A DNA stretch of 64,000 bases. Source: Mesonia oceanica. Its GTDB lineage: Bacteria; Bacteroidota; Bacteroidia; Flavobacteriales; Flavobacteriaceae. The notes under the pieces were generated by a model. The model worked only from the letters and a program-made list of their open reading frames with translations. It was not told the DNA's origin and searched no databases. Both the position numbers and the translations under genes were made by a program. The DNA is taken from positions 372,001 through 436,000 of the forward strand of contig NZ_CABVMM010000001.1 in assembly GCF_902499555.1 (NCBI RefSeq), written 5' to 3'. Positions 37,248-54,228 of this stretch are shown here, in pieces (positions within the stretch are counted from its first letter, which is position 1; every line of letters starts with the position of its first letter).

Positions 37248-40200
37248 GTTTCAGTCCTAGTTGTTTGATGGAGTGCTCTGGAAGGGTCATAGGTTCGAAT
37301 CCTGTTGCGATCACTACAGGTTTCAATCCTAGTTGTTTGATGGAATGCTCTGGAAGCGATCTATATCCCGATCGTAACGGAAGTTACTGGATGTTTCAAT
37401 CCTAGTTGTTTGATGGAATGCTCTGGAAGAGAGGTTTACGAGAAGAAGCTCGAGTTTGCCTTGTCGTTTCAATCCTAGTTGTTTGATGGAATGCTATGGA
37501 AGCGCTCTTCTTTTTGGTAGTTGTGCTTTTCCTTACAAGTTTCAATCCTAGTTGTTTAATGGAATGCTCTGGAATCCTCTTCATTGTTTTCATCCATTAC
37601 GGCATGATCGGTTTCAATCCTAATTGTTTAATGGAATGTTCTGGAAGCTACGTGTACATATCCGTTTTGCCAAGTCTTTTCGTAGTTTCAATCCTAGTTG
37701 TTTGATGGAATGCTCTGGAAGTATTCGGCCGGATAGTAGCGATCTTTCACATCAATGTTTCAATCCTAATTATTTAATGGAATGCTCTGGAAGCAGATTC
37801 GTTACCTTCAACATCTACCGCAGAAACGGGTTTCAATCCTAGTTGTTTAATGGAATGCTCTGGAAGTTAAGCGCAAATGGTACGGGAACGTTGATGATAT
37901 CGAGTTTCAATCCTAATTGTTTAATGGAATGCTCTGGAAGGAATCATCCTGATTTAGGTAGTTTCACATTTGCCACGTTTCAATCCTAGTTGTTTGATGG
38001 AATGCTCTGGAAGAGAGTTTTCTTGATCAAAAAACATTTTACTTGCCAGTTTCGATCCTAGTTGTTTAATGGAATGCTCTGGAAGGGGGGACTTCATCAG
38101 AACCGCCGATGCGCAAATCGTGTTTCAATCCTAGTTGTTTAATGGAATGTTCTGGAAGCGATGTTGATGAACTCAAAAAGCTTTCTATGAATTCGTTTCA
38201 ATCCTAGTTGTTTGATGGAATGCTCTGGAAGTTAAAATGCCCAGGTGAGTTACTTCACTTCTTGTTTTGTTTCAATCCTAGTTGTTTGATGGAATGTTCT
38301 GGAAGATTGGGCTGTTTTTCATATTAATAATCTTGAAGGAAGTTTCAATCCTAGTTGTTTGATGGAATGTTCTGGAAGCGTGCCAAGCCTGACTAAATAT
38401 AATCAAGGGGTTCATGTTTCAATCCTAGTTGTTTAATGGAATGCTCTGGAAGTCTGTAGTTCTATCTAATTCTTTTTGAGACTTTTTGTTTCAATCCTAG
38501 TTGTTTGATGGAATGCTCTGGAAGTCGCAGAAATAAGCTCTGGACGCATTGTAACGTACTTGTTTCAATCCTAATTGTTTAATGGAATGCTCTGGAAGAG
38601 CTGATAGTTTAATCCTTCCGGAGTTTTACATTATGTTTCAATCCTAATTGTTTAATGGAATGCTCTGGAAGGTTCCCCTTCTCCCATATACGGTAAGCGT
38701 GAAAGATGGTTTCAATCCTAATTGTTTAATGGAATGTTCTGGAAGGATAATGTACACTATGAGAACAGAAGGGAAAATTTCGTTTCAATCCTAGTTGTTT
38801 AATGGAATGTTCTGGAAGAGGTTGTGAGCTGTAAAAACAGTTATACAATGTCGGTTTCAATCCTAGTTGTTTAATGGAATGTTCTGGAAGAACCCTTTTC
38901 AAATAGCTACAATTTTTAAGAATTGGTTTCAATCCTAGTTGTTTGATGGAATGTTCTGGAAGCGTGCCAAGCCTGACTAAATATAATCAAGGGGTTCATG
39001 TTTCAATCCTAGTTGTTTAATGGAATGCTCTGGAAGTCTTCCCACGTGATCTCCCACGTGCCAACCACTTCGTTTCAATCCTAATTGTTTAATGGAATGT
39101 TCTGGAAGCCCAATAACCAAAGAGGCTATAACCAATATCACGGGTTTCAATCCTAGTTGTTTGATGGAATGCTCTGGAAGCAAGCCAAAGCAATGAACCT
39201 ATCTTACGCGACGGTGTTTCAATCCTAGTTGTTTAATGGAATGTTCTGGAAGTTTGGCGGTTTCCTTGGCGGTTTTCTTTTGATTGATGGTTTCTCCTAG
39301 TTGTTTAATGGAATGCTCTGGAAGTTTTAATGGTGTTCCATATTTTTAAAGGAACTGTCATGTTTCAATCCTAATTGTTTAATGGAATGCTCTGGAAGCG
39401 ATTTGCACCAATGATTGCCCCAGTGATGCATAAGGGTTTCAATCCTAGTTGTTTGATGGAATGCTCTGGAAGTGGTTTGCCCATTTTGAGAATATATCGT
39501 CTCCAGTGGTTTCAATCCTAGTTGTTTAATGGAATGCTCTGGAAGTATTAAAAGAAGCAGCGTAATGAGGTACAAAGAACTGTTTCAATCCTAGTTGTTT
39601 AATGGAATGCTCTGGAAGTTTGCTCGGGTGACCGAAGGACGGTAAATAACGAGGGTTTCAATCCTAATTGTTTAATGGAATGCTCTGGAAGAGCTAATTC
39701 GTTAGCCTTGTTACCAATGTCTGTATATTGTTTCAATCCTAATTGTTTAATGGAATGCTCTGGAAGAAAATTCAAAAACATTAAGCTCCATCATCGAGAG
39801 AGCGTTTCAATCCTAGTTGTTTGATGGAATGCTCTGGAAGATAGATCTGTTGGCGGTGTGAAAAACAGTCAGCACGGTTTCAATCCTAGTTGTTTGATGG
39901 AATGCTCTGGAAGAACAAATTTGCTGATTGACCACCTATAATTTTGTTGGTTTCAATCCTAGTTGTTTGATGGAATGCTCTGGAAGGGTCCTGCGTTACC
40001 GGTAGATGTAAAAAAACGATGGTGTTTCAATCCTAGTTGTTTGATGGAATGCTCTGGAAGCAAGACCTAATGGTATTTATATTGACGTTGCAGGTTGTTT
40101 CAATCCTAGTTGTTTAATGGAATGCTCTGGAAGTTGGTTATTTGAGGGCTTAAAGTACTTGAAGAAGCATTGTTTCAATCCTAGTTGTTTGATGGAATGC

Positions 40201-43200
40201 TCTGGAAGGTGAGTCACCCTTTATGGTCGATAATCCGCAGTATGTTTCAATCCTAGTTGTTTGATGGAATGCTCTGGAAGGGATGAGGATGATTATACCT
40301 CAAACACACCTAGGTTGTTTCAATCCTAGTTGTTTGATGGAATGCTCTGGAAGACAACAACCTTTTAAAAGGGTTGACTTATTAGGTGAGTTTCAATCCT
40401 AGTTGTTTGATGGAATGCTCTGGAAGATGTCGCTAACGCGTCATCAGATTTAGTTGATACGTTTCAATCCTAGTTGTTTGATGGAATGCTCTGGAAGTTT
40501 CCCTGTATTCGGTGCAGATTCCAAAATATTCACAGTTTCAATCCTAGTTGTTTGATGGAATGCTCTGGAAGCGCTCCGTTGTCGGTCAAGGCTAAAATTT
40601 CAGCGTGTTTCAATCCTAGTTGTTTGATGGAATGCTCTGGAAGTTTAATTTTGAAACACCTTCATTCGATAATTTTTCGTTTCAATCCTAGTTGTTTGAT
40701 GGAATGTTCTGGAAGATTCTAATCTTTTTGATTAGTCTCACGGGATTCAGGTTTCAATCCTAGTTGTTTGATGGAATGTTCTGGAAGAAGTTACACGAGC
40801 AATTAACGGAGGTTACAACGGCTGTTTCAATCCTAGTTGTTTGATGGAATGTTCTGGAAGTTTCTGCAGGAGTTTTTAAGCGGTTGATGTCTTTTCGTTT
40901 CAATCCTAGTTGTTTGATGGAATGTTCTGGAAGTACCTGGTTCAAAGCTAGGGGGTGAAGGTGGTTCTAAGTTTCAATCCTAGTTGTTTGATGGAATGTT
41001 CTGGAAGAGCAACACTGTCCCCAACCATTCTACCAACTTCCTGGTTTCAATCCTAGTTGTTTGATGGAATGTTCTGGAAGTATCTGTCCGGTACTATCTG
41101 AACTGCCAGAGCCACTGTTTCAATCCTAGTTGTTTGATGGAATGTTCTGGAAGCAAACCCTTGTTCCTGCTAACTTCCTTAAGGTGTTAGTTTCAATCCT
41201 AGTTGTTTGATGGAATGTTCTGGAAGACAAGAACAATACTTCATAATTAATAATAATTTAAGGTTGTTTCAATCCTAGTTGTTTGATGGAATGTTCTGGA
41301 AGTCTGTTATTTCTTTTAATAACGCCGGTGTATCAACTCGTTTCAATCCTAGTTGTTTGATGGAATGTTCTGGAAGATTCTAATCTTTTTGATTAGTCTC
41401 ACGGGATTCAGGTTTCAATCCTAGTTGTTTGATGGAATGTTCTGGAAGATTTGGTTGATATCTCCGAAGATAATGATATCCCAGGTTTCAATCCTAGTTG
41501 TTTAATGGAATGCTCTGGAAGTAAACTGGTTAAAATCTTTCATAGTGTTTATTTTTTGTTTCAATCCTAGTTGTTTAATGGAATGCTCTGGAAGAGCCGT
41601 GGCGAAAGAAAGTAAAAGTATCGATATTCTGTTTCAATCCTAGTTGTTTAATGGAATGCTCTGGAAGCTTCTATAGTAAATACAACCCGAATGGTTTGTA
41701 TGTTTCAATCCTAATTGTTTAATGGAATGCTCTGGAAGCCCCAACCCGGGAGTGGTCGATATTTTATATTACGCGTTTCAATCCTAATTGTTTAATGGAA
41801 TGCTCTGGAAGACTCAAGCAATCGCAGCCTTACGTTTACGAGCTCATGTTTCAATCCTAATTGTTTAATGGAATGCTCTGGAAGCGTACAGGACGTAGCG
41901 AAAGAAGTAGGGGAGTTTATGTTTCAATCCTAATTGTTTAATGGAATGCTCTGGAAGATCATATTCCTTTACATACCGCCTTAATAGATTCGTGTTTCAA
42001 TCCTAATTGTTTAATGGAATGCTCTGGAAGCATTATCGCTTATTACGGGGTGAACTTCATTTTCAAGTTTCAATCCTAATTGTTTAATGGAATGCTCTGG
42101 AAGTTTTTGTTCGGATTATCTATCTGTTGGCATCGATATGTTTCAATCCTAATTGTTTAATGGAATGCTCTGGAAGAATCCCCGGTTTACCTTTTAAATC
42201 GTATTTGTACTCGTTTCAATCCTAATTGTTTAATGGAATGCTCTGGAAGAGCGTTTTGAAGGAACTCCTAATTTAGGAGTAATATTGTTTCAATCCTAAT
42301 TGTTTAATGGAATGCTCTGGAAGTTTTTGAATCTCCCCTATTTGTTACTGAAAATCAAAGTTTCAATCCTAATTGTTTAATGGAATGCTCTGGAAGAAAA
42401 CAGGCTAGTGTTGAAGAAATAGCGGGAAGGTGTTTCAATCCTAATTGTTTAATGGAATGCTCTGGAAGTTATTCCCTTCAATTTTATTATCTACATAACC
42501 AACCTGTTTCAATCCTAATTGTTTAATGGAATGCTCTGGAAGCTTTCTGGGGAAATTTAATCATATCCCAATCTTTAGTTTCAATCCTAATTGTTTAATG
42601 GAATGCTCTGGAAGACCTGGTTCAAAGCTAGGAGGTGAAGGTGGTTCTAAGTTTCAATCCTAATTGTTTAATGGAATGCTCTGGAAGAAACAGCTTTTGA
42701 ATTCATCTGCAATATTTACAACAAGTTTCAATCCTAATTGTTTAATGGAATGCTCTGGAAGCAATTCCTTTTATTGTTAGCGGATTAATCGAAATATGTT
42801 TCAATCCTAATTGTTTAATGGAATGCTCTGGAAGCCAAAGGAGGAGCAAAATATAGAACGTGCTTTCATTAGTTTCAATCCTAATTGTTTAATGGAATGC
42901 TCTGGAAGTGGGCAATTATTAATCGAGTCTTATTTACTAATTAGTTTCAATCCTAATTGTTTAATGGAATGCTCTGGAAGATGGTTTAGGAGCAAGGGAA
43001 ACTGCTACACAAATACGGTTTCAATCCTAATTGTTTAATGGAATGCTCTGGAAGCTAAAAAGCGGTTTCAATTTGCACCGGTCTTAGAGGGTTTCAATCC
43101 TAATTGTTTAATGGAATGCTCTGGAAGCATAATTTAAATATTTATTTATTGATTTGTTTGATGTTTCAATCCTAATTGTTTAATGGAATGCTCTGGAAGT

Positions 43201-44735
43201 TTAAGGGCTGTTTTTAAATTATTCTTATGAAGATATGTTTCAATCCTAATTGTTTAATGGAATGCTCTGGAAGTAAAAGTTGAATTTCAGAAAGAAAATG
43301 GGGGTCTCGTTTCAATCCTAATTGTTTAATGGAATGCTCTGGAAGTTTCTATAGTAACGTTATTAAGAGTTATAGAACCTGCGTTTCAATCCTAATTGTT
43401 TAATGGAATGCTCTGGAAGAGCCGTTAATTGATCTTGGCTTTCTACTATTTTCTGGTTTCAATCCTAATTGTTTAATGGAATGCTCTGGAAGATTCGTTT
43501 AAAAAACTAATTGCGATGATGATTGCAAGTTTCAATCCTAATTGTTTAATGGAATGCTCTGGAAGCAGGCGAACCGGCACCAAAAATGCCCCCAATAACC
43601 TGTTTCAATCCTAATTGTTTAATGGAATGCTCTGGAAGACTTTCCATTTTTGTTATATGACAGTGCAACAATGGTGTTTCAATCCTAATTGTTTAATGGA
43701 ATGCTCTGGAAGTAAAATATTTATGGCTTATTACGGAATCGTTGATATGTTTCAATCCTAATTGTTTAATGGAATGCTCTGGAAGGTTAGCTGCAGATGC
43801 CTCTACAAGCCACACACCTTTGTTTCAATCCTAATTGTTTAATGGAATGCTCTGGAAGCTTTTGTAAGGTCGCTTAACGGTCTTAGTATTGGTTGTTTCA
43901 ATCCTAATTGTTTAATGGAATGCTCTGGAAGAAGGTTACGTTTCTTACGTTTTCTGCTATGTCCTCGTGTTTCAATCCTAATTGTTTAATGGAATGCTCT
44001 GGAAGCAACATACTTTCTTCTAAATACTCAATATCAATAACGTTTCAATCCTAATTGTTTAATGGAATGCTCTGGAAGATTCCTGCTTGCTTATCAAATC
44101 CTGACATTCCCTGTGTTTCAATCCTAATTGTTTAATGGAATGCTCTGGAAGTTTCGTGAGCTTTCATTTTATTATCCCTAAGAAGCTCGTTTCAATCCTA
44201 ATTGTTTAATGGAATGCTCTGGAAGCATTTAGAATCAACCTCTACAGCAGGTTTATCCTTAGTTTCAATCCTAATTGTTTAATGGAATGCTCTGGAAGCA
44301 GGCTGGCTTCGTGAGGAAGTTGGTACTGACCGCTTGTTTCAATCCTAATTGTTTAATGGAATGCTCTGGAAGTAATAATTGATTAATTAATCCTGTGTAA
44401 AATTAATGTTTCAATCCTAATTGTTTAATGGAATGCTCTGGAAGTTGGAAAGCAGTAGAAGGTCATGCAAAAAGAGCCATGTTTCAATCCTAATTGTTTA
44501 ATGGAATGCTCTGGAAGTATTGATGCTCCTTATCTTGAAAATTGCGGTGAAGGTTTCAATCCTAATTGTTTAATGGAATGCTCTGGAAGAAAATTAGAAA
44601 TAGTTTCAGCTTCTGCGACAAGCGTGTTTCAATCCTAATTGTTTAATGGAATGCTCTGGAAGTCATATATATCTATGTAATCAAGCCCGTTAGTTTCAGT
44701 TTCAATCCTAATTGTTTAATGGAATGCTCTGGAAG
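37248..44735 (-). CRISPR. Type I-B CRISPR array, 103 repeats and 102 spacers
   Basis: Repeats are 37 bp with a period of 71-76 bp; spacers are 34-39 bp. On the minus strand the repeat starts CTTCCAGAGCATTCCATTAA and ends AATTAGGATTGAAAC, giving the usual 8-nt ATTGAAAC crRNA handle. Orientation: the 42 repeats next to the cas operon (41702-44735) are identical, whereas the far end carries degenerate repeats (37248 with two changes, 37466, 37539, 37757, 38049, and a 2-bp deletion at 39290), so the leader is at 44736 and the array is transcribed on the minus strand. I located every repeat start by eye and the count agrees with the span. Confidence 0.98.
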
Positions 44736-44928
44736 CCGATTGTTACGCCTAATTCAGAAATAATGCTGTCTAAACGATTATTTGCAATTTCTAAAACCTT
44801 ATTTTTCAATATGTCAAAGAACGTAAAAACGGAAAAATAAGTAAATTTTCCGTATTCAAAAAGCCCCGTATTTACTGGCATAAGCGTATAAATTTAAGTG
44901 ATTAGAAATAAATTGACAGGCGGAATAC
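44736..44928 (-). promoter_or_regulatory. CRISPR leader
   Basis: AT-rich 193 bases between cas4 and the first repeat. On the minus strand GTTCTTTGACATATTGAAAA (TTTGAC at 44813-44818) and TAGAAATTG (44785-44793), about 19 bases apart, form a plausible -33/-7 pair that would start transcription about 35-40 bases before the first repeat. IHF-like or integration sites could not be identified. Confidence 0.75.
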
Positions 44929-45504
44929 CTATTTAATGCAGATATTCCGGTAGGTACAATTTACACATCTTTTCTTAAATGTTGTGGCTTTCGGGAATTT
45001 ATTTTGTTGGATAATCACCAGCATTTTTTCCATACTCGCTTTTATTTCTTTTTTTGCTTCGGGAGGGATGGAGACTTCTATCAATTTATGTTTGCTTCGG
45101 GTATAAACCAAAAAGCCTTTATTAACTTTAGCGTGAAAATTCTCTTCTATTAATACCGCATAACAGTAGAGTTGCTGCTTGTAGGTGTCGTAAACCCTAT
45201 CTTTCCAATATGCAAATTTATAATCCAAGGGAGCAAAACTATTATCCCCTAACTCTAGCACCTCATCTATTTTTCCTCGTAAGCCTTCCACTCCCAAATA
45301 CTGGTCTACCCATTTGTTTTTCACTCCGATCTTTTTACGTAGATAGGCCTTATTCTGTTCCAACTTTTCGTTATGTACCTCCCTACCTCTAGTAACTTTG
45401 TAAAACTTGTCTTCGTATTGCGGAATACGGAGCACGTACTCGAAATAAGTGTATCGAGGACAATAGAGGTATTCGATAATTTGTGAAGGATAAAAGCTTT
45501 GCAT
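44929..45504 (-). CDS. cas4: CRISPR-associated Cas4 exonuclease
   Basis: 191 residues. The RecB-like nuclease core shows GREVHNEKLEQ, LRGKIDEVLELG and APLDYKFAYWKD (Asp and Lys of the active site). Iron-sulfur cluster cysteines are Cys15 in EYLYCPRYTY and the C-terminal trio CVNCTYRNIC. Cas4 selects and trims prespacers to set PAM and orientation with Cas1-Cas2. Its start overlaps the cas2 stop (TAATG). Confidence 0.96.
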   Translation of the reverse strand: MQSFYPSQIIEYLYCPRYTYFEYVLRIPQYEDKFYKVTRGREVHNEKLEQNKAYLRKKIGVKNKWVDQYLGVEGLRGKIDEVLELGDNSFAPLDYKFAYWKDRVYDTYKQQLYCYAVLIEENFHAKVNKGFLVYTRSKHKLIEVSIPPEAKKEIKASMEKMLVIIQQNKFPKATTFKKRCVNCTYRNICIK

Positions 45505-45794
45505 TAGAAAAAAAGAGCTTTTACTTCATCGGTAACCAATTTATCATCAAAAGCCTGCCCGAGCATCGTACAATCTTTTAATTGTTCTTTATTCATCCGG
45601 AAAATATAGATCTTATCGGTGTCTTCATTAATTACTTTTTCAATTTGCAGCTCCAAGCTATCTTTTTCGTTATCATTTAAGCTGCCTAAAAAACAAGAAT
45701 ACTGTACTCGATATAAGCCCGCGTGTTTACAAACTTTAGCGACGTAATTTCTGGCACTATTATTTTTAATGTCATACAAGACCCAAATAATCAT
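45504..45794 (-). CDS. cas2: CRISPR-associated Cas2
   Basis: 96 residues with the ferredoxin-like fold start MIIWVLYDIKNNSARN, including the conserved Asp8, and YRVQYSCFLGSLNDNE. Forms the integrase complex with Cas1. It is separated from cas1 by a 143-base gap, unlike the tight spacing of the other cas genes. Confidence 0.96.
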   Translation of the reverse strand: MIIWVLYDIKNNSARNYVAKVCKHAGLYRVQYSCFLGSLNDNEKDSLELQIEKVINEDTDKIYIFRMNKEQLKDCTMLGQAFDDKLVTDEVKALFF

Positions 45795-45937: not shown

Positions 45938-46936
45938 TCATTGTTCAGAAATTAAACTGTTAGCGAAACGGTGAGCTTCCAATTGAACTGCATTTAACCG
46001 GGTTTGTAATTTTCCTTTATAGCGTATTTTTTCACTATCTAAATATTCTAAATAAGGGGCAACAAAAAAGGCTTTTCCTTCTTCATTTAAAGAAACCCCT
46101 CCGGTAAATCCTGTAAAATAATTTTTGTTGATTTTTTTTCCGCTAAATAACCTAAATACAAAACGATCGGCATAGCTGCGGTAAGGCTCTATAAAATCAT
46201 AAATCAGGCTTTTGGAGTTATAATCGTCCCTATGCATAAAACCCACAAAGGGATCAAGTCCTGCTAACATCAACGCTCGTTCTATACGACTGTATAAAAT
46301 TCCGTAAGCATAATTAAGCATGGCATTAAATTCGTCTTTTGCCGGGCGAAAACTTCTTCCATTAAAATTAAAATCTTTGGGCATACAAAGGGAAAGGGCA
46401 TCAAAATATTGTCGGCCTGAAGAGCCTTCCCAACCCCTAAAAGATTCATCAACTTCTTTGATATCTGTAGCAGAAGATTGCATGATTTTTTCCCTGAAAT
46501 TAAGAATGGCCTCAGATTTCTCTTCAAGGGTTGTATGTAAATTTTTACGATGTTTTTTTAAATCCTGAAGGAAATCTGCTTGATTCTCAAGCTTTACACT
46601 CAACCATTCTTTGATCCATTTTACGCCAACTTCGTTTAAAGAGGCTTTTAATTGTTCTTTACGTATTTTGGTGGTACTCCCTAATTTACTGTGCCAAAAA
46701 CGTCCCATGGGATGCCCGTTGTTTTCTACGATCACAATATCGATATTGTGTTTTAGTGCCAGGGCGATAGCATCGGAAGTAAGGGCTGCACCTTTTGAAA
46801 CGATAAAGGAAGTTACCTTGTGGGCAGCAATATGATTTACTTTAAAAGGTTGCTTCTTATCCTCACGCACTTTGATCTCAAACATATCGTCTTTAACGTG
46901 GAGGTAGGTACCGTATGTATTGATAAAAATTTGCAT
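45938..46936 (-). CDS. cas1: CRISPR-associated Cas1 integrase
   Basis: 332 residues, the I-B length. The metal site is visible: Glu in EFNAMLNYAYGILYSRIE, His in GFMHRDDYNSKSLIYDF, and the acidic residue in DFIEPYRSYAD. The N-terminal beta domain starts MQIFINTYGTYLHVKDDMFE. Catalyses spacer integration at the leader-repeat junction with Cas2. Start and cas6 stop overlap by one base. Confidence 0.97.
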   Translation of the reverse strand: MQIFINTYGTYLHVKDDMFEIKVREDKKQPFKVNHIAAHKVTSFIVSKGAALTSDAIALALKHNIDIVIVENNGHPMGRFWHSKLGSTTKIRKEQLKASLNEVGVKWIKEWLSVKLENQADFLQDLKKHRKNLHTTLEEKSEAILNFREKIMQSSATDIKEVDESFRGWEGSSGRQYFDALSLCMPKDFNFNGRSFRPAKDEFNAMLNYAYGILYSRIERALMLAGLDPFVGFMHRDDYNSKSLIYDFIEPYRSYADRFVFRLFSGKKINKNYFTGFTGGVSLNEEGKAFFVAPYLEYLDSEKIRYKGKLQTRLNAVQLEAHRFANSLISEQ

Positions 46937-47622
46937 TAGGCGGGTATTAGGGTGCCAAAGCCACGGCTTACTGCCTTGCCCAGGCCAATCTCGGCAGGCA
47001 GGAGGGCATTGACTACAAAACTGCCGGAAAAGGCAATCATACGGTTTTCTTTAAACAAAGTACTTTTTTCCTGAACCTGAACTTTCGCCATCAGGCGCTC
47101 ATTAGAGCTAAGTTCAATTCCTGTATTTCGAAAAAAGCTGAGTATATGGCCCACTAAAATCGCATTGAGCATGGCTTCTTTTTCGGCTTCTGTTTTTAGG
47201 TTTTGATATTTGGGATAGTTCTTTTGGTTTAAGGCCATCCAAAGCGTTTCAAACTTATATTGGTGCAATTGATCACTATAGCCCGTGCTTTCATTGCGCA
47301 TCTCAATATTTTTACTGCTAATGGGATAGGATTGCCCTGAAATATCCAATTCTTTAATTTTAAGAAAGAGTTGGGGTAATAAAGCAGCTCCTTCATTGAT
47401 GCCGATTAGCGTGGGCACTTTATTGATTATTTTATATTGAACACTGGGGTATTTATACCGAAAACGGCCATCCTCATAATGATTGTGTAGGATGGGGGAT
47501 TGCTGTTTAAATAAATTCCCAAAATAGCCCCGCAGTTTATGGGCGTCGCGGGTTTGTAATTTGATTTCCGGGAATTTGATACGGCAAATTTGCAGTTCTT
47601 GAGTGGTGGTGGATGTTGTCAT
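46936..47622 (-). CDS. cas6: CRISPR-associated Cas6 endoribonuclease
   Basis: 228 residues, RAMP fold. The Gly-rich C-terminal loop GLGKAVSRGFGTLIP is the family hallmark, and the N-terminal part has LQICRIKFPEIKLQTRDAHKLRGYFGN with a candidate catalytic His. Cleaves repeat RNA to leave the ATTGAAAC 5' handle on crRNAs, and would also have to process the crRNA-like RNA at 53682-53755. It sits between cas3 and cas1, a slightly unusual place for I-B, where cas6 is often first. Confidence 0.9.
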   Translation of the reverse strand: MTTSTTTQELQICRIKFPEIKLQTRDAHKLRGYFGNLFKQQSPILHNHYEDGRFRYKYPSVQYKIINKVPTLIGINEGAALLPQLFLKIKELDISGQSYPISSKNIEMRNESTGYSDQLHQYKFETLWMALNQKNYPKYQNLKTEAEKEAMLNAILVGHILSFFRNTGIELSSNERLMAKVQVQEKSTLFKENRMIAFSGSFVVNALLPAEIGLGKAVSRGFGTLIPA

Positions 47623-47662: not shown

Positions 47663-50068
47663 TTAGAATGTTAAAACGTCAATGCCTTCGAAAATATAGC
47701 CTTCTTTATTTTTTGAGAAATCAGTATTGCAGTTATAAATAGGTTTAAATTGATTATCGACATCTACAAAATAAAACCCTAAACAAGGTTCAAAAGGAAG
47801 ACCAATATTTTCGGAATCGTAGGGAATATTAATATTTATGACATAATCGTAAAACTTAGCTTTTATTAAAGCAAAAGCATTTTTTTTCTCGAAGGGGTTT
47901 AAATTTTCATTTTCTTGTATCAAAATGTAATCCTGCCATATTTGTTTTGCATCTTCGTTTAATCCGATAAATATGGATTCTGATTTAGTATTTTCAATGA
48001 GTTGAAAATTTCCTGTTTCTTCGAAATTTAAAGCTAGTAAGCTTTTTAAATAGTTATTTTCAGAATAGAGAGAAAGGTCATTTACTTGCAAAAAATAGTT
48101 CTGTATCAATTCTAAATACTCTTTTTCTTCGATAGTTTCAAAATCCTTTAAAACGTTCTCGGTTTTCTTGATTAAATCAGCACCATATATAAATCCGGTT
48201 ACTCTTTCTAGTTCTTCTATTTTATAAAGGTATACTTCGCTTACTTCTTCTTTCTCATCATATCTATTAGCTCTTCCGGCTGCTTGAATTATAGAATCCA
48301 GTGGAGCAAGTGCCCTGAATACTGTATCGACCGATATATCAACCCCTGCTTCAACAAGTTGCGTACTGATTATTATTTGACGTTTACCTTTGAATTTTGA
48401 CTTTATTTTTTTTATAATTTTCTTCCTTTCAAATGGAGTAAGTAAAGTTGTCAAGTAAAAAATATCATTTTCTTTAGTGTCAAGGCTACTATTAATATTC
48501 CTATAAGTCTCTAAGGTTATCTTCTTGGTATTTAAAATAATTAAAACATCCTTTTTAGGTTTATCGAGGCAGTATTTGATGATAACTTCATTAAACATCT
48601 CTAATGAGATAGATTCTCTCATTTTATTTATTAATCTGGTTCGGTTGAAGAACGAAAAATAGCGTTGATGATTCTCAACCAGCTCTGTGATTTCTTCCTT
48701 AGGTTTAAAAATTAAGGGTTGTGTAGCGGACATTAAAACGATATAGCAATTCAAATGTTCTGCTACTGAGAAAAAAGCCTGGCGGATAACTTGCCAAAGA
48801 GCATGGGGAATTTGTTGAACTTCATCTAGAATGATCACGGAATTAGATAAAGCGGAAAATTTGAGAAGTTTTGTTTTATTGTTAGTGATAAAGCATTCTA
48901 GTAACTGCACAAAAGTGGTTACAATGACAGAGCTTTGCCAAGTTTCTATTAAATATTTACTTTCTTTAGAATCACGTATATTATCTTCATTTTCTTTATA
49001 TCTAGGTTCGGCTAAATGATGATGTTTTAAAAGTAATGCGTTATTAGGATCATTGAAAACTTCGCTATAAACTTCATAATTTTGATCAATTATACTTGTA
49101 AATGGAATAGCTATAATAATTTTTCCCTCTTTTAATTTTGCTAATTCTCTTAATTTTAATGAAGCTCCGAGAGACGTGAGTGTCTTTCCCAATCCCGTGG
49201 GTAATGAAATAGAATAAAAGTGATTGGAAGCTTTGAAATCATTTTCTAAAGATTTTATGACCGAATAATAAGCTTCATTCTTAAGGTTATTAATAGTCGT
49301 TGAAGGTAAATTGAAACCTTTATTTTTCCTGTAGTCAGATAAATAATTTAAATTGAGATTAGGGATTTCTGGAAATTTCCCTGCCAAGATTACATCAGAT
49401 TTATCTGAGTACAATAAAGCTCCAAACATCCATAAGAAAAGATAATAGACTTCGGATTTTTTGGGATTTTCCCATTTTTTTTGAAAATTGAGATTGTAAA
49501 ATGCAATGAGTTCAAGACGTGTTTCTTTACGAGATCCATCATTTTCAAACCAATTGATGAAATCACTCCAGTCCACCGAAATTTTAAGTTTTTCATTCCC
49601 TATTTCGATGATTTCTTGAATAGCTTGTTTGTCTATTGATTTAAATTGTTTGTCTAAATCTTCTTTAAAATGATCAATTCCTAGTTCATTTTTGAAGTTA
49701 CCAAGGTTTCCGTGATGTCTTCTTACAACTATAAAGCAAATCGTAATTAGTAAAAACCTCTCATCTTTGGTAAGTTCTTTTTCTTTTAAGTATTCTTTTG
49801 CAACATACAATACAAAAACAGCTGAAGGAAGTGCGTGGTTCTTTAAGCTATTGTGCTGCCCTTCTGGATTTAGAAGGTAATTTTGAAAATAGGAAGTCGC
49901 TTTTCCTAAATCGTGATAAAATCCGCATATAAAAAGCAAACCAGCTTTGATTTTTTCTTCTAAACCAAAGTTTGTATTATTCCTATGAGCGATGATTAAA
50001 CAGTTTTTCGCAACTTCTGTTAAATGATCAATCAAAGGAATTCCCGGGTGTGACTCAATTATTTTCAT
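47663..50068 (-). CDS. cas3: CRISPR-associated helicase-nuclease Cas3
   Basis: 801 residues with fused HD nuclease and helicase. HD part: GFYHDLGKATSYFQNYL (about residue 50), NHALPSAVF and RRHHGNLGNF. Helicase: Walker A SLPTGLGKTLTSLGASL near residue 290, DEVQ box ILDEVQQIPHALW near 414, MSATQPL, and motif VI IIQAAGRANRYDE. Degrades DNA unwound by Cascade. Its start overlaps the cas5 stop by four bases (ATGA). Confidence 0.97.
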   Translation of the reverse strand: MKIIESHPGIPLIDHLTEVAKNCLIIAHRNNTNFGLEEKIKAGLLFICGFYHDLGKATSYFQNYLLNPEGQHNSLKNHALPSAVFVLYVAKEYLKEKELTKDERFLLITICFIVVRRHHGNLGNFKNELGIDHFKEDLDKQFKSIDKQAIQEIIEIGNEKLKISVDWSDFINWFENDGSRKETRLELIAFYNLNFQKKWENPKKSEVYYLFLWMFGALLYSDKSDVILAGKFPEIPNLNLNYLSDYRKNKGFNLPSTTINNLKNEAYYSVIKSLENDFKASNHFYSISLPTGLGKTLTSLGASLKLRELAKLKEGKIIIAIPFTSIIDQNYEVYSEVFNDPNNALLLKHHHLAEPRYKENEDNIRDSKESKYLIETWQSSVIVTTFVQLLECFITNNKTKLLKFSALSNSVIILDEVQQIPHALWQVIRQAFFSVAEHLNCYIVLMSATQPLIFKPKEEITELVENHQRYFSFFNRTRLINKMRESISLEMFNEVIIKYCLDKPKKDVLIILNTKKITLETYRNINSSLDTKENDIFYLTTLLTPFERKKIIKKIKSKFKGKRQIIISTQLVEAGVDISVDTVFRALAPLDSIIQAAGRANRYDEKEEVSEVYLYKIEELERVTGFIYGADLIKKTENVLKDFETIEEKEYLELIQNYFLQVNDLSLYSENNYLKSLLALNFEETGNFQLIENTKSESIFIGLNEDAKQIWQDYILIQENENLNPFEKKNAFALIKAKFYDYVININIPYDSENIGLPFEPCLGFYFVDVDNQFKPIYNCNTDFSKNKEGYIFEGIDVLTF

Positions 50069-50826
50069 AGAAACTGTATGTTTCCTTCATTTTTGATATT
50101 AAATGAGTTTTTATTTGGTAAAGCTCTTATACTTTCGCCATTCATTTCTATAAGGATTTCCCCGTATCGTTTTATTGTCCTGTCAATTTGCATATCCAGT
50201 GGAAAGGTTTCAACCTGAAAAGTTTTTTGCTTAATAAAATCAATATCTATAGGTGCTTTTTCAGATTTTATTTCAGAAAGATTAACAGCCGTACTAAAAT
50301 CAATATAACTGCTTTCAAAAATTTCAACCAATTCTTTTTCTCCTATAAATTCAATATTGGCGGTCATTTGGCTTATGCCTAAATATGGATTAAAATGAAA
50401 CCTTTTATTTGCTAAACGTTCTATTAATTCCTTTTCTAGTGGATGATCCCATTGAAGATAAATTCTAAATTTCGGGTCCTTTAAAATTTCATATTCTATT
50501 TGAGTTCTGTTTGTTACATTAAAGAAAGATTGATAGGATCCTGTATCTAATAGATTAAAGCCAATATTTACTTTCTTTATTTCAGAAATGGGCCTAATTG
50601 CTAGAGAAGCATTTTTATTGGAGAAAACTTCTCTTAGATGTTCTTTTTTCTCTCTTATTTTATTGTGAGAATCTTCTCGTTCAATACCTAAAACCGCTCC
50701 CAAAAGTCCAAAAATGGCTGAAGGCGTTGGAATACTATATGTTAATGGAGAAGTTGTAGTATTGAATTTTCTAAAATGGCCATATTCTCCATAAACATCG
50801 AATATGATTGCTGTCTTAGAAGTCAT
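50065..50826 (-). CDS. cas5: Cascade subunit Cas5 (type I-B)
   Basis: 253 residues. The N-terminal IFDVYGEYGHFRKFNTTTSPLTYSIPTPSAIFGLLGAVLGI is the Cas5 RAMP signature, with the family's conserved SYSIPTPSA-type segment. Caps the crRNA 5' handle in Cascade. It overlaps the 3' end of cas7 by 11 bases. Confidence 0.95.
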   Translation of the reverse strand: MTSKTAIIFDVYGEYGHFRKFNTTTSPLTYSIPTPSAIFGLLGAVLGIEREDSHNKIREKKEHLREVFSNKNASLAIRPISEIKKVNIGFNLLDTGSYQSFFNVTNRTQIEYEILKDPKFRIYLQWDHPLEKELIERLANKRFHFNPYLGISQMTANIEFIGEKELVEIFESSYIDFSTAVNLSEIKSEKAPIDIDFIKQKTFQVETFPLDMQIDRTIKRYGEILIEMNGESIRALPNKNSFNIKNEGNIQFL

Positions 50827-51733
50827 TTACCTGATATGTTTTGTTATCTAAGTTGTAGACTTCTCCATTATTTATGAATTTTAAGCGACTATCTACCTGA
50901 ACTTCTACAGAAGTGATTTTATCAGATTGAGCTTTAATTTCTTTAAGCAGTCCTGTAAGATCTATATTATAATCTTCGGTATTTCTTATTTGTAAATCGC
51001 TTTTTTCCGAGCTGATTTTTAAACGTTGTCTCAACCCGCCGATATAATATGGCTCTTTATAATTAACAGTTAAAAGCAATAGAGGATTCTGACCGAATTT
51101 TGAACGTGAGATAAGATTTTTTGTTCCGTTCCATATCCCCTCCAATAATAGCTTCCGGTCTTCTTCGGTCATTTTGGTATACTGTGCAGCTTTTTCGTTT
51201 ACAATTCCATTAAAACCGATAAGTGCATAAGGAATTTTATATTCTGTTCTAAATGTAGTTTGTTTCTTTTTATCTCCTGAAGCAAAAGCACCTGTTCCTT
51301 GCTCCGTAATAATTTCTGTTTGATGCAATGATTTACCCATTTGAAATTGTACTGGTCCAGTATAAGTAAAAGTGTCTTTTTTAATTGGCAAAACACCTCC
51401 AAAAACTCGAACATCGATACAAGTTTCTAATACTTTATCACTACTTTCTTTGAACAATTCAGCTCTTCGTGAACCAGATGAAATATATTCTTCTTTTCCA
51501 TCAGAATATTTTGTTTCACGTACAAAAATATCTTTATCATCAGAGCCGTTAAAGCCCTTATATTCAAACCAATAATCTCTTATCGTTCTTTTTAAACGTA
51601 CATCTGAAACAAGGACTTTGTTTTCTTCAGTATCAAATCTTGGACGATTTTCATTTAAAGGATCACCATTGGGATTTGCATTCTCGATTTCATATAAGAA
51701 TAGTATTTCTGATCGGTTTTTAATTTCTTCCAT
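50816..51733 (-). CDS. cas7: Cascade backbone Cas7 (type I-B, Csh2)
   Basis: 305 residues. RSEILFLYEIENANPNGDPLNENRPRFD...VSDVRLKRTIRDYW is the characteristic Csh2/Cas7 N-terminus with the Asn-Pro-Asn-Gly-Asp motif; DIRVFGG-like CIDVRVFGGVLPIKK and GPVQFQMGKSLHQTE are also present. Forms the helical crRNA-binding backbone. Confidence 0.96.
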   Translation of the reverse strand: MEEIKNRSEILFLYEIENANPNGDPLNENRPRFDTEENKVLVSDVRLKRTIRDYWFEYKGFNGSDDKDIFVRETKYSDGKEEYISSGSRRAELFKESSDKVLETCIDVRVFGGVLPIKKDTFTYTGPVQFQMGKSLHQTEIITEQGTGAFASGDKKKQTTFRTEYKIPYALIGFNGIVNEKAAQYTKMTEEDRKLLLEGIWNGTKNLISRSKFGQNPLLLLTVNYKEPYYIGGLRQRLKISSEKSDLQIRNTEDYNIDLTGLLKEIKAQSDKITSVEVQVDSRLKFINNGEVYNLDNKTYQVNDF

Positions 51734-51755: not shown

Positions 51756-52175
51756 TTATGATTTAAATTTTCTTCCTAATTCAAGTCCGCATACAAAATT
51801 GAATGAGATTTCCTGATTAGACATTTTTTCTATTTCCTTTTTATGAGTACTTAACTTATCGGCGATAAATTCACGAAGGTCTTTATAGGTATTCTGATAG
51901 GAATATTGATTTACCTTTTCTACCGCCTCTGTATAAATCCGTTCAACATCTCTCGAGGTAATATGCAATCCCTTTAGTTTTTTCTCAAAAGGTGTACTGT
52001 TTAGGTTGGCTTGTTGCATACTAAAAACCAAATGAACGAGCACGCCGAGGCTAAAAATTCCTGCTGATGCATCTTTTCTTACAAAATCTTCGTTTTCTGA
52101 CATGAAGCTTTTAAGCTTTTCAAAATCAAAGGAAACTTTTTTCCTGATTTCTTCTTTTTCTTCTTCGGTTACCAT
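51756..52175 (-). CDS. Separate small subunit, Cas11-like C-terminal part of Cas8b
   Basis: 139 residues, mostly helical. ASAGIFSLGVLVHLVFSMQQ, STPFEKKLKGLHITSRDVERIY and EISFNFVCGLELGRKFKS match the C-terminal segment I recall from Csh1/Cas8b proteins, which makes up the small subunit. Here it is its own gene with an ATG start, 11 bases after the shortened cas8b. In many I-B loci Cas11 arises by internal translation within cas8b, so a stand-alone gene is a variation. Likely stabilises Cascade on the target strand. Confidence 0.8.
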   Translation of the reverse strand: MVTEEEKEEIRKKVSFDFEKLKSFMSENEDFVRKDASAGIFSLGVLVHLVFSMQQANLNSTPFEKKLKGLHITSRDVERIYTEAVEKVNQYSYQNTYKDLREFIADKLSTHKKEIEKMSNQEISFNFVCGLELGRKFKS

Positions 52176-52186
52176 AGTTCTAATAT

Positions 52187-53596
52187 TTAGTTCTCATAAT
52201 TAATTAGATTGAGTTCTGAAAAATAGTTTTGAAGTAAATAGCACTTCGCAATTAATAAATCCCCTCTTTCAACAAAACCCTCGTTATTTACTTTTTTAAT
52301 ATAGTTTGCCCGTATAACTTTCATAAAACGTTTATGCAATTCTTTTTCATTTATTTTTCTTCCCATAAATATTTTATAGGTCATTTCATAGAAATTATCC
52401 TCGAAGAATTGTTTGATTAATCTAAAACTAAATCGCAAATCTTGTTTTTGCTTTTTCTTGTAGTGGTAATCTATATCTTTAAAAAGGGGGCTGTTATTTA
52501 TAATTTTAGGGACTTCTATAAATAATTTCCGAAACCGGGAAGGAGGGATTTCTTCTAGCATCATCTTTATTTTAATAGCTTTTGTAGTTGGATTTTCTTC
52601 AAAAAAAAGAAGATTTAATGTAAATACATTGTTGTCGATTTCTCCAATTCTTTCCATCAAAAAATCTTCAGTTGAAGAGATAGATTCACTATTTTTTATT
52701 TGATAATCAATATCATTAAAAAGGTTTAAAGCATCATTCAGTGCTTCGGTGTCGTTAGGGAGAACTGCCTTAGGAATTAAAAAATAACTTTTACCGAAAA
52801 AATATTTTGTAAGATATTTGGTTATGTAGTTTTTTCCCAACTCCATTTCAATAGCACAACTTTCACAAATTGGATAATTTATCCAGTTGTTTTTCTGATT
52901 AAAGAACCCGCTTACGGTACCTGTTTTGTCTACTGTACTGTATTTAAATGGTGAGCCAAACCCAAAAACCTCCGGCTTAGTTTGATGGCATATACTACAT
53001 CTCTTGTTTTTACTTTTAGAAACAACATTATATTTTTTGTAGTTTCCTTCTATTCCGTTTTTAGCAATTAGCTGTTGGACAGCTTCAAAGTCAGATAATA
53101 ACTTTCTTTCATTATCAATATCAATTGTTAAAGTAAATGCGCTGCTAAGTTTATCTTGTTTTCCTTGGTTGTCATAAGCCTTTTGTAATTCATCTTTAAT
53201 TTTATCGTAGTTTTTAATAAACGAATTCTTCCAGTCTTTATAAAAATCAACTTTCTCAGCCTCTTCCTTTTTTGATAGTTCAATTAAGTTTGGAAATTGA
53301 GTATTGATAAGTGTGTTTAATTTTTTATCTAAATCCCCGAATTTGGTGGTAAAAGTTATGTCACCACCACGTGCGGAACCCTTACGATAGGCATACTTCG
53401 GAAAGTTTTGCTCATTCACATTTTGGAAGTCGATACCTTTAAAGGATATTTCTCTTTCTTTTTGTCGGAACTCAATTAAAAGCATTTTACAAACCTTATT
53501 TGGATACGGCTCCTGTGTGAAAAGCTCATAGGGTTTGAGATTTGAGTTCTTCTTAAACTCTAATTTTCCAATATCTGTTATTGCCCTGTCTTGCAT
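52187..53596 (-). CDS. cas8b: Cascade large subunit Cas8b (Csh1 / TM1802-like), without the C-terminal part
   Basis: 469 residues. A four-Cys zinc ribbon is visible at about residues 200-245 (CSICHQTKPEVFGFGSPFKYS then CESCAIEMELGKNY). AYRKGSARGGDITFTTKFG near residue 60 also resembles the TM1802 family. As the large subunit it should recognise the PAM and open target DNA. First gene of the cas operon, downstream of a -7 box at 53617-53624, and hence the point where the proposed guide RNA would exert control. Confidence 0.9.
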   Translation of the reverse strand: MQDRAITDIGKLEFKKNSNLKPYELFTQEPYPNKVCKMLLIEFRQKEREISFKGIDFQNVNEQNFPKYAYRKGSARGGDITFTTKFGDLDKKLNTLINTQFPNLIELSKKEEAEKVDFYKDWKNSFIKNYDKIKDELQKAYDNQGKQDKLSSAFTLTIDIDNERKLLSDFEAVQQLIAKNGIEGNYKKYNVVSKSKNKRCSICHQTKPEVFGFGSPFKYSTVDKTGTVSGFFNQKNNWINYPICESCAIEMELGKNYITKYLTKYFFGKSYFLIPKAVLPNDTEALNDALNLFNDIDYQIKNSESISSTEDFLMERIGEIDNNVFTLNLLFFEENPTTKAIKIKMMLEEIPPSRFRKLFIEVPKIINNSPLFKDIDYHYKKKQKQDLRFSFRLIKQFFEDNFYEMTYKIFMGRKINEKELHKRFMKVIRANYIKKVNNEGFVERGDLLIAKCYLLQNYFSELNLINYEN

Positions 53597-53616
53597 AGTT
53601 TTATCTATTATATAAA

Positions 53617-53624
53617 CAAATATA
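53617..53624 (-). promoter_or_regulatory. -7 box of the cas operon promoter
   Basis: Minus-strand TATATTTG matches TAnnTTTG and lies 21 bases upstream of the cas8b start codon. The start site would be near 53613. The -33 region then falls at about 53640-53650; it has no strong TTG. Confidence 0.65.
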
Positions 53625-53638
53625 ATTTAAATAATTTA

Positions 53639-53654
53639 CATATAGTTGTTTATT
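53639..53654. promoter_or_regulatory. Proposed Cascade target site in the cas promoter
   Basis: CATATAGTTGTTTATT is identical to the first 16 nt of the pseudo-spacer at 53707-53722. On the plus strand it is preceded by TTA, the candidate PAM. It spans about -26 to -41 of the cas promoter and about -43 to -28 of the guide RNA's own promoter. The identity ends sharply after 16 bases. Confidence 0.8.
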
Positions 53655-53670
53655 GTTAACTAGATTTAAT

Positions 53671-53678
53671 TATATTTG
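53671..53678 (+). promoter_or_regulatory. -7 box of the crRNA-like RNA
   Basis: TATATTTG on the plus strand matches TAnnTTTG; transcription would begin near 53682, exactly where the first degenerate repeat starts. A TTG at 53646-53648 (22-base spacing) or 53653-53655 (15-base spacing) could serve as -33. Confidence 0.65.
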
Positions 53679-53681
53679 CCT

Positions 53682-53755
53682 CATCCAAATTAAAAAGGAT
53701 TGAAACCATATAGTTGTTTATTTAAAATAATCCATAAAAAAATAAGGATTGTAAA
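53682..53755 (+). ncRNA. CreR-like crRNA guide (mini-CRISPR) upstream of cas8b
   Basis: First degenerate repeat: bases 53682-53706 end with GGATTGAAAC, identical to the array repeat's last 10 nt including the 8-nt handle. Pseudo-spacer: starts at 53707, first 16 nt identical to the site at 53639-53654, then unrelated. Second degenerate repeat: 53731-53755 matches the last 25 nt of the array repeat at 20 of 25 positions (TCCATAAAAAAATAAGGATT...). Cas6 could process it to a crRNA-like guide. Partial 16-nt complementarity favours Cascade binding without Cas3 cleavage, as known for CreA/CreR elements. Position and match make autorepression of cas the best explanation; expression is untested. Confidence 0.82.
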
Positions 53756-53761
53756 AAAATA

Positions 53762-53834
53762 GCCCCCGTAGCTCAATTGGATAGAGCAGAACTACCGAAA
53801 GTTCAGGTTCCAAGTTCGAATCTTGGCGGGGGTT
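53762..53834 (+). tRNA. tRNA-Arg(CCG)-like gene with a short anticodon arm
   Basis: Acceptor GCCCCCG pairs with CGGGGGT (last pair G-U); the D arm GCTC/GAGC, variable AGGTT and T arm CCAAG-TTCGAAT-CTTGG are all good. The anticodon stem GAACT/AGTTC (53789-53793, 53800-53804) closes a loop of only six bases, ACCGAA, instead of seven; CCG would read Arg codons. The discriminator base would be T and no CCA is encoded. It may be a real tRNA, a decayed one or a tRNA-like RNA cotranscribed with the guide RNA 7 bases upstream. Confidence 0.6.
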
Positions 53835-54228
53835 CTTATTAAGTTAAATCCCATTTACTTTTTCCTTGGCTTTGCCATTCTTCAATCTTTAAAAGTGTTT
53901 GAAGCATATTTTTATATCTTTTATGATAAGCTAAAGATAATTAACTTTTTGTTGAGAGCCTTACGGTTTCCCGTATTTATAATATTTTCTTTGCGTGTAC
54001 AAAGAATGAGCAAGACCTACATTCTTACCCATAAAAAAAGCCACTAACTTTTTACAGCTAATGGTTTTTCTATTGATTTGCGAAAACTAAATTTTAAAAC
54101 AATTTATGACCTATAATCACTCAAAAATTTCTTTATTAGTAGGCTTCCTCTTATGAATTTACTCCAGCAGATAGGAAAGAATAAGGCTTTTGGTAAAATA
54201 TTTCTAAAAAGCTTTAGTTTTACCATTA
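53835..54228. other. Gene-free stretch with possible decayed ORF
   Basis: No intact gene. The plus-strand frame at 53823-54047 runs out of the tRNA and is not credible. The minus strand reads as fragments broken by stops (for example HKRYKNMLQTLLKIEEW at about 53870-53930) and could be a decayed small nuclease-type ORF, which I cannot prove. A weak hairpin with AT runs lies at 54032-54069. Confidence 0.4.

Follow-up and report, generated by a model that had tools for sequence, protein, structure and literature searches.

Upstream of cas8b, the window (by which we mean the whole stretch of 64 000 nucleotides that was analysed) carries what its sequence strongly supports to be a crRNA-like Cascade guide of the CreR/CreA kind, because of the TTTA flank of the target, the geometry of the seed match and the covariation of guide and target in a relative. 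We consider it probable that this guide brings Cascade to the interval separating its own unit from cas8b and represses the cas genes without cutting. A reading made from the sequence alone had proposed a CreR that autorepresses cas; its crRNA-like guide of the CreR/CreA kind is retained, but the evidence leaves room for more than repression of cas. The target is situated ahead of the guide's own predicted promoter as well, the targets at two related loci are far from cas8b and a tRNA-Arg-like sequence follows the guide, so that a CreTA-type arrangement has to be weighed as well. Neither the TTTA flank nor the tRNA-like sequence directly downstream figured in the sequence-only reading. The guide itself is of a known kind; the attached tRNA-like sequence appears to be a new element.

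The repeat unit and its target ahead of cas8b

The cas operon is a complete type I-B set, cas6b included (Table 1). Beside cas8b stand two degenerate repeats, psiR1 and psiR2, both facing away from it, as the sequence-only reading had described; its statements that the first repeat ends with GGATTGAAAC at 53706 and the guide begins at 53707, that bases 1 to 16 of the guide are those of 53639-53654 with a mismatch from base 17, and that the second repeat shares 20 of 25 bases with the array repeat were likewise borne out by sequence comparison, the last over 24 aligned columns, the 25th being a mismatch. For the first repeat, the intact GGATTGAAAC end stood but the remainder is weaker than had been worded: without its last 10 nt, psiR1 has 5 of 15 in-register matches to the repeat of its own array, and 8 to 11 of 15 to the repeats of five other loci. 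That it fits other arrays better than its own was counted against a guide, and so was the psiR2 of a related locus, L003, which scores 22 with the window's repeat and 14 with its own. The psiR2 of the window scores highest with the repeat of its own array (32, as against 28 at most), and that of another relative, L004, does so narrowly (26 versus 25), six repeats being compared in each case.

Table 1. Features of the CRISPR region, in coordinates of the window
Feature	Position	Strand	Remark
Canonical array	37248..44735	-	repeat CTTCCAGAGCATTCCATTAAACAATTAGGATTGAAAC, matched 102 times with up to 4 mismatches
cas4	44929..45504	-	
cas2	45504..45794	-	
cas1	45938..46936	-	
cas6b	46936..47622	-	
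cas3	47663..50068	-	
cas5b	50065..50826	-	
cas7 (Csh2)	50816..51733	-	
Separate C-terminal part of TM1802/Cas8b family	51756..52175	-	
cas8b (TM1802 family)	52187..53596	-	first gene of the cas operon
TATATTTG, putative -7 box of cas promoter	53617..53624	-	promoter function putative
TTTA, putative PAM (TTA/TTTA)	53635..53638	+	5' of target; flanks five guide/target pairs
Target of guide	53639..53654	+	identity to guide; 42 nt upstream of cas8b start codon
TATATTTG, putative -7 box of guide/tRNA-like transcript	53671..53678	+	promoter function putative
psiR1, first degenerate repeat	53682..53706	+	intact GGATTGAAAC at 53697-53706
Pseudo-spacer (guide)	53707..53730	+	first 16 nt = 53639-53654
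psiR2, second degenerate repeat	53731..53755	+	20/25 bases as in array repeat
tRNA-Arg-like sequence	53762..53835	+	6-nt anticodon loop (ACCGAA); homologues in L003 and L004

The unit is not a canonical array, its repeats not being near-identical and its spacer falling far below the array's 34-39 nt. It is a crRNA-like unit with degenerate repeats outside the array, which is expected of a CreR, and it combines two degenerate repeats with a seed match at positions 1-5 and 7-11, which is expected of a CreTA module.

The 16 nt CATATAGTTGTTTATT are present twice in the window, at 53639 and at 53707. None of 200 000 Markov promoters, equal in length and searched on both strands, contained a prefix match this long (the longest was 15, once), and the real spacers of the array gave prefix matches to the promoter of at most 6 (n = 100, 3 of 103 pieces having been dropped for odd length). 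The seed together with its TTTA flank, TTTACATATNGTTGT, has a single occurrence in the 4.28-Mb genome. One explanation could be a chance match, or a duplicated regulator binding site, with no guide at all: the gap is AT-rich, 16 nt is short, and a match is missing in L002, the nearest relative. The Markov promoters, the permuted motifs considered below and the fact that guide and target have changed in step in L004 argue against it, and we hold it extremely improbable. As expected of a CreR, the guide seed matches a PAM-flanked site ahead of the cas operon, the PAM being deduced from five guide/target pairs; comparison of the array (37248-44930) with a phage collection gave no match, hence its spacers lend the PAM no independent support.

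The -7 box of Bacteroidota has the consensus TAnnTTTG. Two TATATTTG boxes fit it, so that the target would lie upstream of both the cas and the guide promoters; the plus-strand box is 32 nt from the target start. A position of the target upstream of the putative promoter of the guide/tRNA-like transcript is the one that bears on a CreTA module, in which the promoter of the toxic RNA is concerned.

In the mechanism that we propose, the guide would be transcribed from the plus-strand box at 53671-53678 and its RNA trimmed by Cas6b at ATTGAAAC, the 8-nt handle given by psiR1; the predicted crRNA-sized RNA, beginning ATTGAAACCATATAG, would then lead Cascade to the TTTA-flanked site in the gap ahead of cas8b. 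Bound there, Cascade would overlie the upstream portions of the two divergent promoters, with the result that cas would be repressed and, probably together with it, the guide and the tRNA-like RNA. Repression would end once free Cascade is lost, be it through Acr proteins, crRNA competition or cas mutation. Binding of the site without cleavage is to be expected, since a match of 16 nt falls short of the 26 nt at which repression gives way to cleavage: according to PMC10551041, the type I-B Cascade of Parageobacillus represses without cleavage at complementarities up to 26 nt, and its PAM is TTA. In Haloarcula, spacers of up to 24 bp repress without interference according to PMC10989794, those of 16 and 20 bp being weak, at about 65-67% of control in one strain, with about 67% for the 16-nt spacer; we count this weakness at 16 nt against the guide.

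Natural guides of this sort have precedents. The review PMC12737573 describes CreR as a crRNA-like RNA that autorepresses cas in systems of types I and V-A. The present unit resembles it in its degenerate repeats beside cas, in the partial guide match ahead of cas and in the predicted autorepression; it differs by the tRNA-like sequence attached in three loci and by a target that also precedes the guide's own predicted promoter. The long-form tracrRNA and the scaRNA of Cas9 are likewise natural guides that repress transcription through a short match, once of cas itself, but they work with a class 2 effector instead of Cascade (PMC8730458).

Guide/target pairs at related loci

An initial Cas8b search led to three loci: L002 (Cas8b 86%), L003 (57%) and L004 (54%). 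A protein search found 302 relatives; among the matches listed, the best 120 of the 302, close relatives occur in Cyclobacterium, Maribacter and Flavobacterium, and the listed species include Maribacter aurantiacus, Flavobacterium sp. CS20 and Psychroflexus planctonicus. By genome, searching 395 members of the class turned up Cas8b matches with E up to 0.001 in 6. With E up to 1e-30 the counts are 1 of 395 in the order and 1 of 397 in the family, 9 of 390 in the order of genome G290, 4 of 206 in the family of G1489, 1 of 2 in the genus of G1513 and 1 of 16 in that of G1485; the window's own genome is counted among the class, order and family matches, and several genomes recur between searches. 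Neither Cas8b relatives nor the repeat-plus-tRNA pattern was found in viral contigs, and plasmids yielded one distant Cas8b and nothing else.

A uniform scan covered up to 800 nt upstream of cas8b at 16 loci, the window included, for an ATTGAA motif and a seed of at least 9/10. It gave 24 ATTGAA sites and 12 pairs with such a seed, 5 of which have TTTA: those of the window, L003, L004, L054 and L059. A TTTA-flanked pair is absent from the 11 other loci, and among the 12 seed pairs the flank is a different one in 7. No TTTA pair came from 59 permuted motifs in the same scan. When all 17 positions were weighted equally, there were 9 hits, with TTTA only at the same five, and 575 null sites gave no TTTA. 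Matches of 13/17 without TTTA are common in the null set, at least one for 43 of the 59 motifs and nine for one of them, which was counted against the guide. As to the sample, the weak partial Cas8b hits L008-L010 (28-31%) were left out, L062 is L003, L006 and L011 coincide with L053, L007 and L012 coincide with L054, and only 463 nt of upstream sequence were available for L061; the 16 loci are partly non-independent, Cas8b being 99% identical between L055 and L056 and 92% between L060 and L061, and L064 and L065 lying in one genome.

Taken singly, the pairs differ in weight. Null promoters did as well as the real one in 17 of 3000 cases for L003 (1 with TTTA), in 3 of 3000 for L059 and in 0 of 3000 for both L004 and L054; the L003 pair taken alone is weak. 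About 334 nt upstream of cas8b, L056/L068 (G1206) has a GGATTGAAAT unit with a 10/10 seed and mismatches at positions 6 and 12. Its flank is CCGG and not TTTA, so it was not counted as a guide/target pair; the match is due either to chance or to another PAM.

L003 and L004 have the architecture of the window with another guide, their seeds matching at 9/10 and 10/10, respectively, and both with TTTA. Between the window and L004, 8 of the 16 guide positions are different, and at 7 of these 8 the targets differ in step (read by eye); the sole exception is position 6. For CreA, the seed comprises positions 1-5 and 7-11, and changes at 6 and 12 were without effect in the experiments of PMC8501985, so that the exception falls on a position dispensable there. 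The seed rule ignored positions 6 and 12, so that selection accounts in part for the mismatches there, and L003 and L004 are not independent, since they have the first 11 guide bases in common. The covariation of guide and target for which the sequence-only reading proposed to look in related loci is seen between the window and L004. L002 has no pair: it contains only GGATTGAAAT, with no convincing target, its best seed match being 7/10 in the gap and 8/10 within 500 nt, without TTTA. No tRNA was found in its 21 kb.

The distance from target to cas8b varies: 42 nt in the window, 4 in L003, 13 in L004, about 430 in L054 and about 275 in L059. The target of L054 adjoins the start of its own guide and that of L059 lies between guide and cas8b. 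At the level of sequence, the guide class is thus a recurrent one, yet its target is not always beside cas8b. A separate observation concerns L054 (G242), where reading by eye of the region about 200-460 nt upstream of cas8b suggests a hairpin after the guide unit and a small CxxC protein between guide and cas8b; either is a candidate alternative partner of the guide.

Could the guide act without Cascade, as an antisense RNA on the leader of the cas mRNA? Any cas leader containing 53639-53654 would have its complement in the guide, and in L003 and L004 the target is as close to the start codon as just stated. Such pairing would not account, however, for the TTTA that flanks all five pairs or for a match in register right after the 8-nt handle, and between target and gene the window has the putative cas -7 box (53617-53624). 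We regard this explanation as very unlikely.

The tRNA-Arg-like sequence after the guide

Three of the 16 loci (the window, L003 and L004) have a tRNA-like sequence directly after the guide. In the window it scores 49.9 bits against the Rfam tRNA family, the second lowest of 40 hits in the genome; those of L003 and L004 score 31.3 and 39.0 bits, the former being the lowest of 38 in its own genome. By fold, all three have an anticodon loop A[A/C]CGAA of 6 nt, so the one in the window lacks the 7-nt loop of a decoding tRNA; for L003 the ARAGORN model has, unlike the fold, a loop of 7 nt. Compared with shuffled sequences, the fold is stable in the window (z -3.29), moderately so in L004 (z -1.62) and not in L003 (z 0.07). 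The three are 70-80% identical to each other. Six of 21 stem pairs are altered on both sides and 95% of cells still pair, in a comparison of three sequences only; D-arm and anticodon arm are paired in all three loci save one mismatch and one gap in L003, and the acceptor stem has one mismatch in L003 and one in L004. In the genome's own tRNA-Arg an A follows the acceptor stem; here another base does.

Among the 39 other tRNAs of its genome, the best match of the window's tRNA-like sequence is Arg CCT, at 76%, as compared to 70% with the tRNA-like of L003; against the same 39, those of L003 and L004 reach 65% and 69%. In the genome of L003, G1513 (37 tRNA readings, 30 stretches), the best values are 71% for the window, 66% for L003 and 73% for L004. 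The window's genome has its own tRNA-Arg with anticodons ACG, TCG, TCT and CCT. At another locus, L058 (G1489), a tRNA-Arg(CCT) with an ordinary anticodon lies at 728-800, about 700 nt upstream of cas8b, where there is no TTTA-flanked pair. We found no description of a tRNA-like partner of such a guide in the open-access literature, subscription papers being outside the search.

The tRNA-like RNA may be a toxin, a processing element or a bystander. Transfer RNA folds are substrates of RNase P. One possibility, to which we lend tentative credence, is a plain CreR: the guide represses cas, and the tRNA-like sequence is a 3' processing signal with an RNase P cut just ahead of it, sets the end of the guide RNA in some other way, or is a bystander. 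The psiR2 copy is degenerate, especially in L003, no terminator-like site was found in 53550-53950, and PMC12737573 describes CreR as generally uncoupled from toxins. RNase P, however, would need neither a D-arm nor an odd anticodon arm, and both stay paired, if in three sequences only, save for the mismatch and the gap in L003.

Another possibility, which we think rather unlikely, is an addiction module of the CreTA type, in which the guide mainly represses its own promoter, the tRNA-Arg-like RNA is a toxin set free on loss of Cascade and repression of cas is a side effect of the gap that both share. Its strength is that the tRNA-like follows the guide in all three TTTA loci of the group formed by the window, L003 and L004, while L002 lacks both, and that the three sequences keep their similarity, their double-sided pair changes and the 6-nt loop; the window's genome is already supplied with four tRNA-Arg, and the TATATTTG box before the guide, near the target, also suits a guide acting on its own promoter. 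With the known modules of type I-B, those of H. hispanica and H. hubeiense (PMC8501985, PMC9458426), the present unit shares two degenerate repeats, a match limited to a seed with a PAM and a position 6 that is not needed, and its own promoter may be targeted too; CreA of H. hubeiense autorepresses the creTA promoter, and the two CreT RNAs of known action sequester a rare tRNA-Arg or tRNA-Ile (PMC8501985, PMC9458426). But in the CreTA described in these papers the toxin is a mini-ORF located upstream, between promoter and guide, whereas here the tRNA-like sequence comes after the guide. The guides of L054 and L059 have no tRNA-like sequence, and toxicity is only putative. The acceptor-stem mismatches of L003 and L004, the base other than A after the stem and, for L003, a fold no better than shuffles also weigh against a toxin. 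A full version, a new kind of CRISPR-regulated addiction module in which Cascade, under its mini-CRISPR guide, silences a tRNA-Arg mimic with the six-base loop that poisons translation, so that the cell would die or stall on loss of Cascade to an anti-CRISPR or a mutation, with cas autoregulated from the same site, strikes us as unlikely.

The CRISPR island and implications of the guide

The TM1802/Cas8b protein is split in the window into genes of 469 and 139 aa; L003 and L004 have a single frame of about 620 aa. The surroundings were compared with 15 congeners at the neighbouring gene of 1136 aa. The 1.5 kb upstream of that gene contain neither GGATTGAAAC nor a tRNA in any of them, and in 14 of the 15 this stretch matches the sequence flanking the array on its left, the match ending about 85-230 nt short of the gene. 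Such a site, free of a tRNA and matching the flank, makes the CRISPR island (about 37.1-54.2 kb), its tRNA-like sequence included, most simply an insertion. The idea that the tRNA-like sequence was the integration target of the island is not supported, the 15 congeners having no tRNA within these 1.5 kb and its 3' end having no second copy in the window. The closest congener found (G1679, L100 1-1000), with 93% for the 1136-aa gene, has another CRISPR array at this chromosomal position. Read by eye, its repeat is GCTGTAAATCATGACTAAAAATACAATTTTGAAAGCAATTCACAAC and its spacers are of about 30 nt; we take this array to resemble type II. The position is a possible hotspot of CRISPR islands.

If our interpretation of the unit as a Cascade guide is true, RNA-guided self-control of type I CRISPR systems would extend to a I-B lineage of Bacteroidota with a TTA-type PAM, for which five naturally varied guide/target pairs offer test material. 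It would also point to the tRNA-like sequence as a possible new kind of partner for such switches. Should this partner prove toxic, it would be a tRNA-mimic RNA toxin under the control of Cascade.
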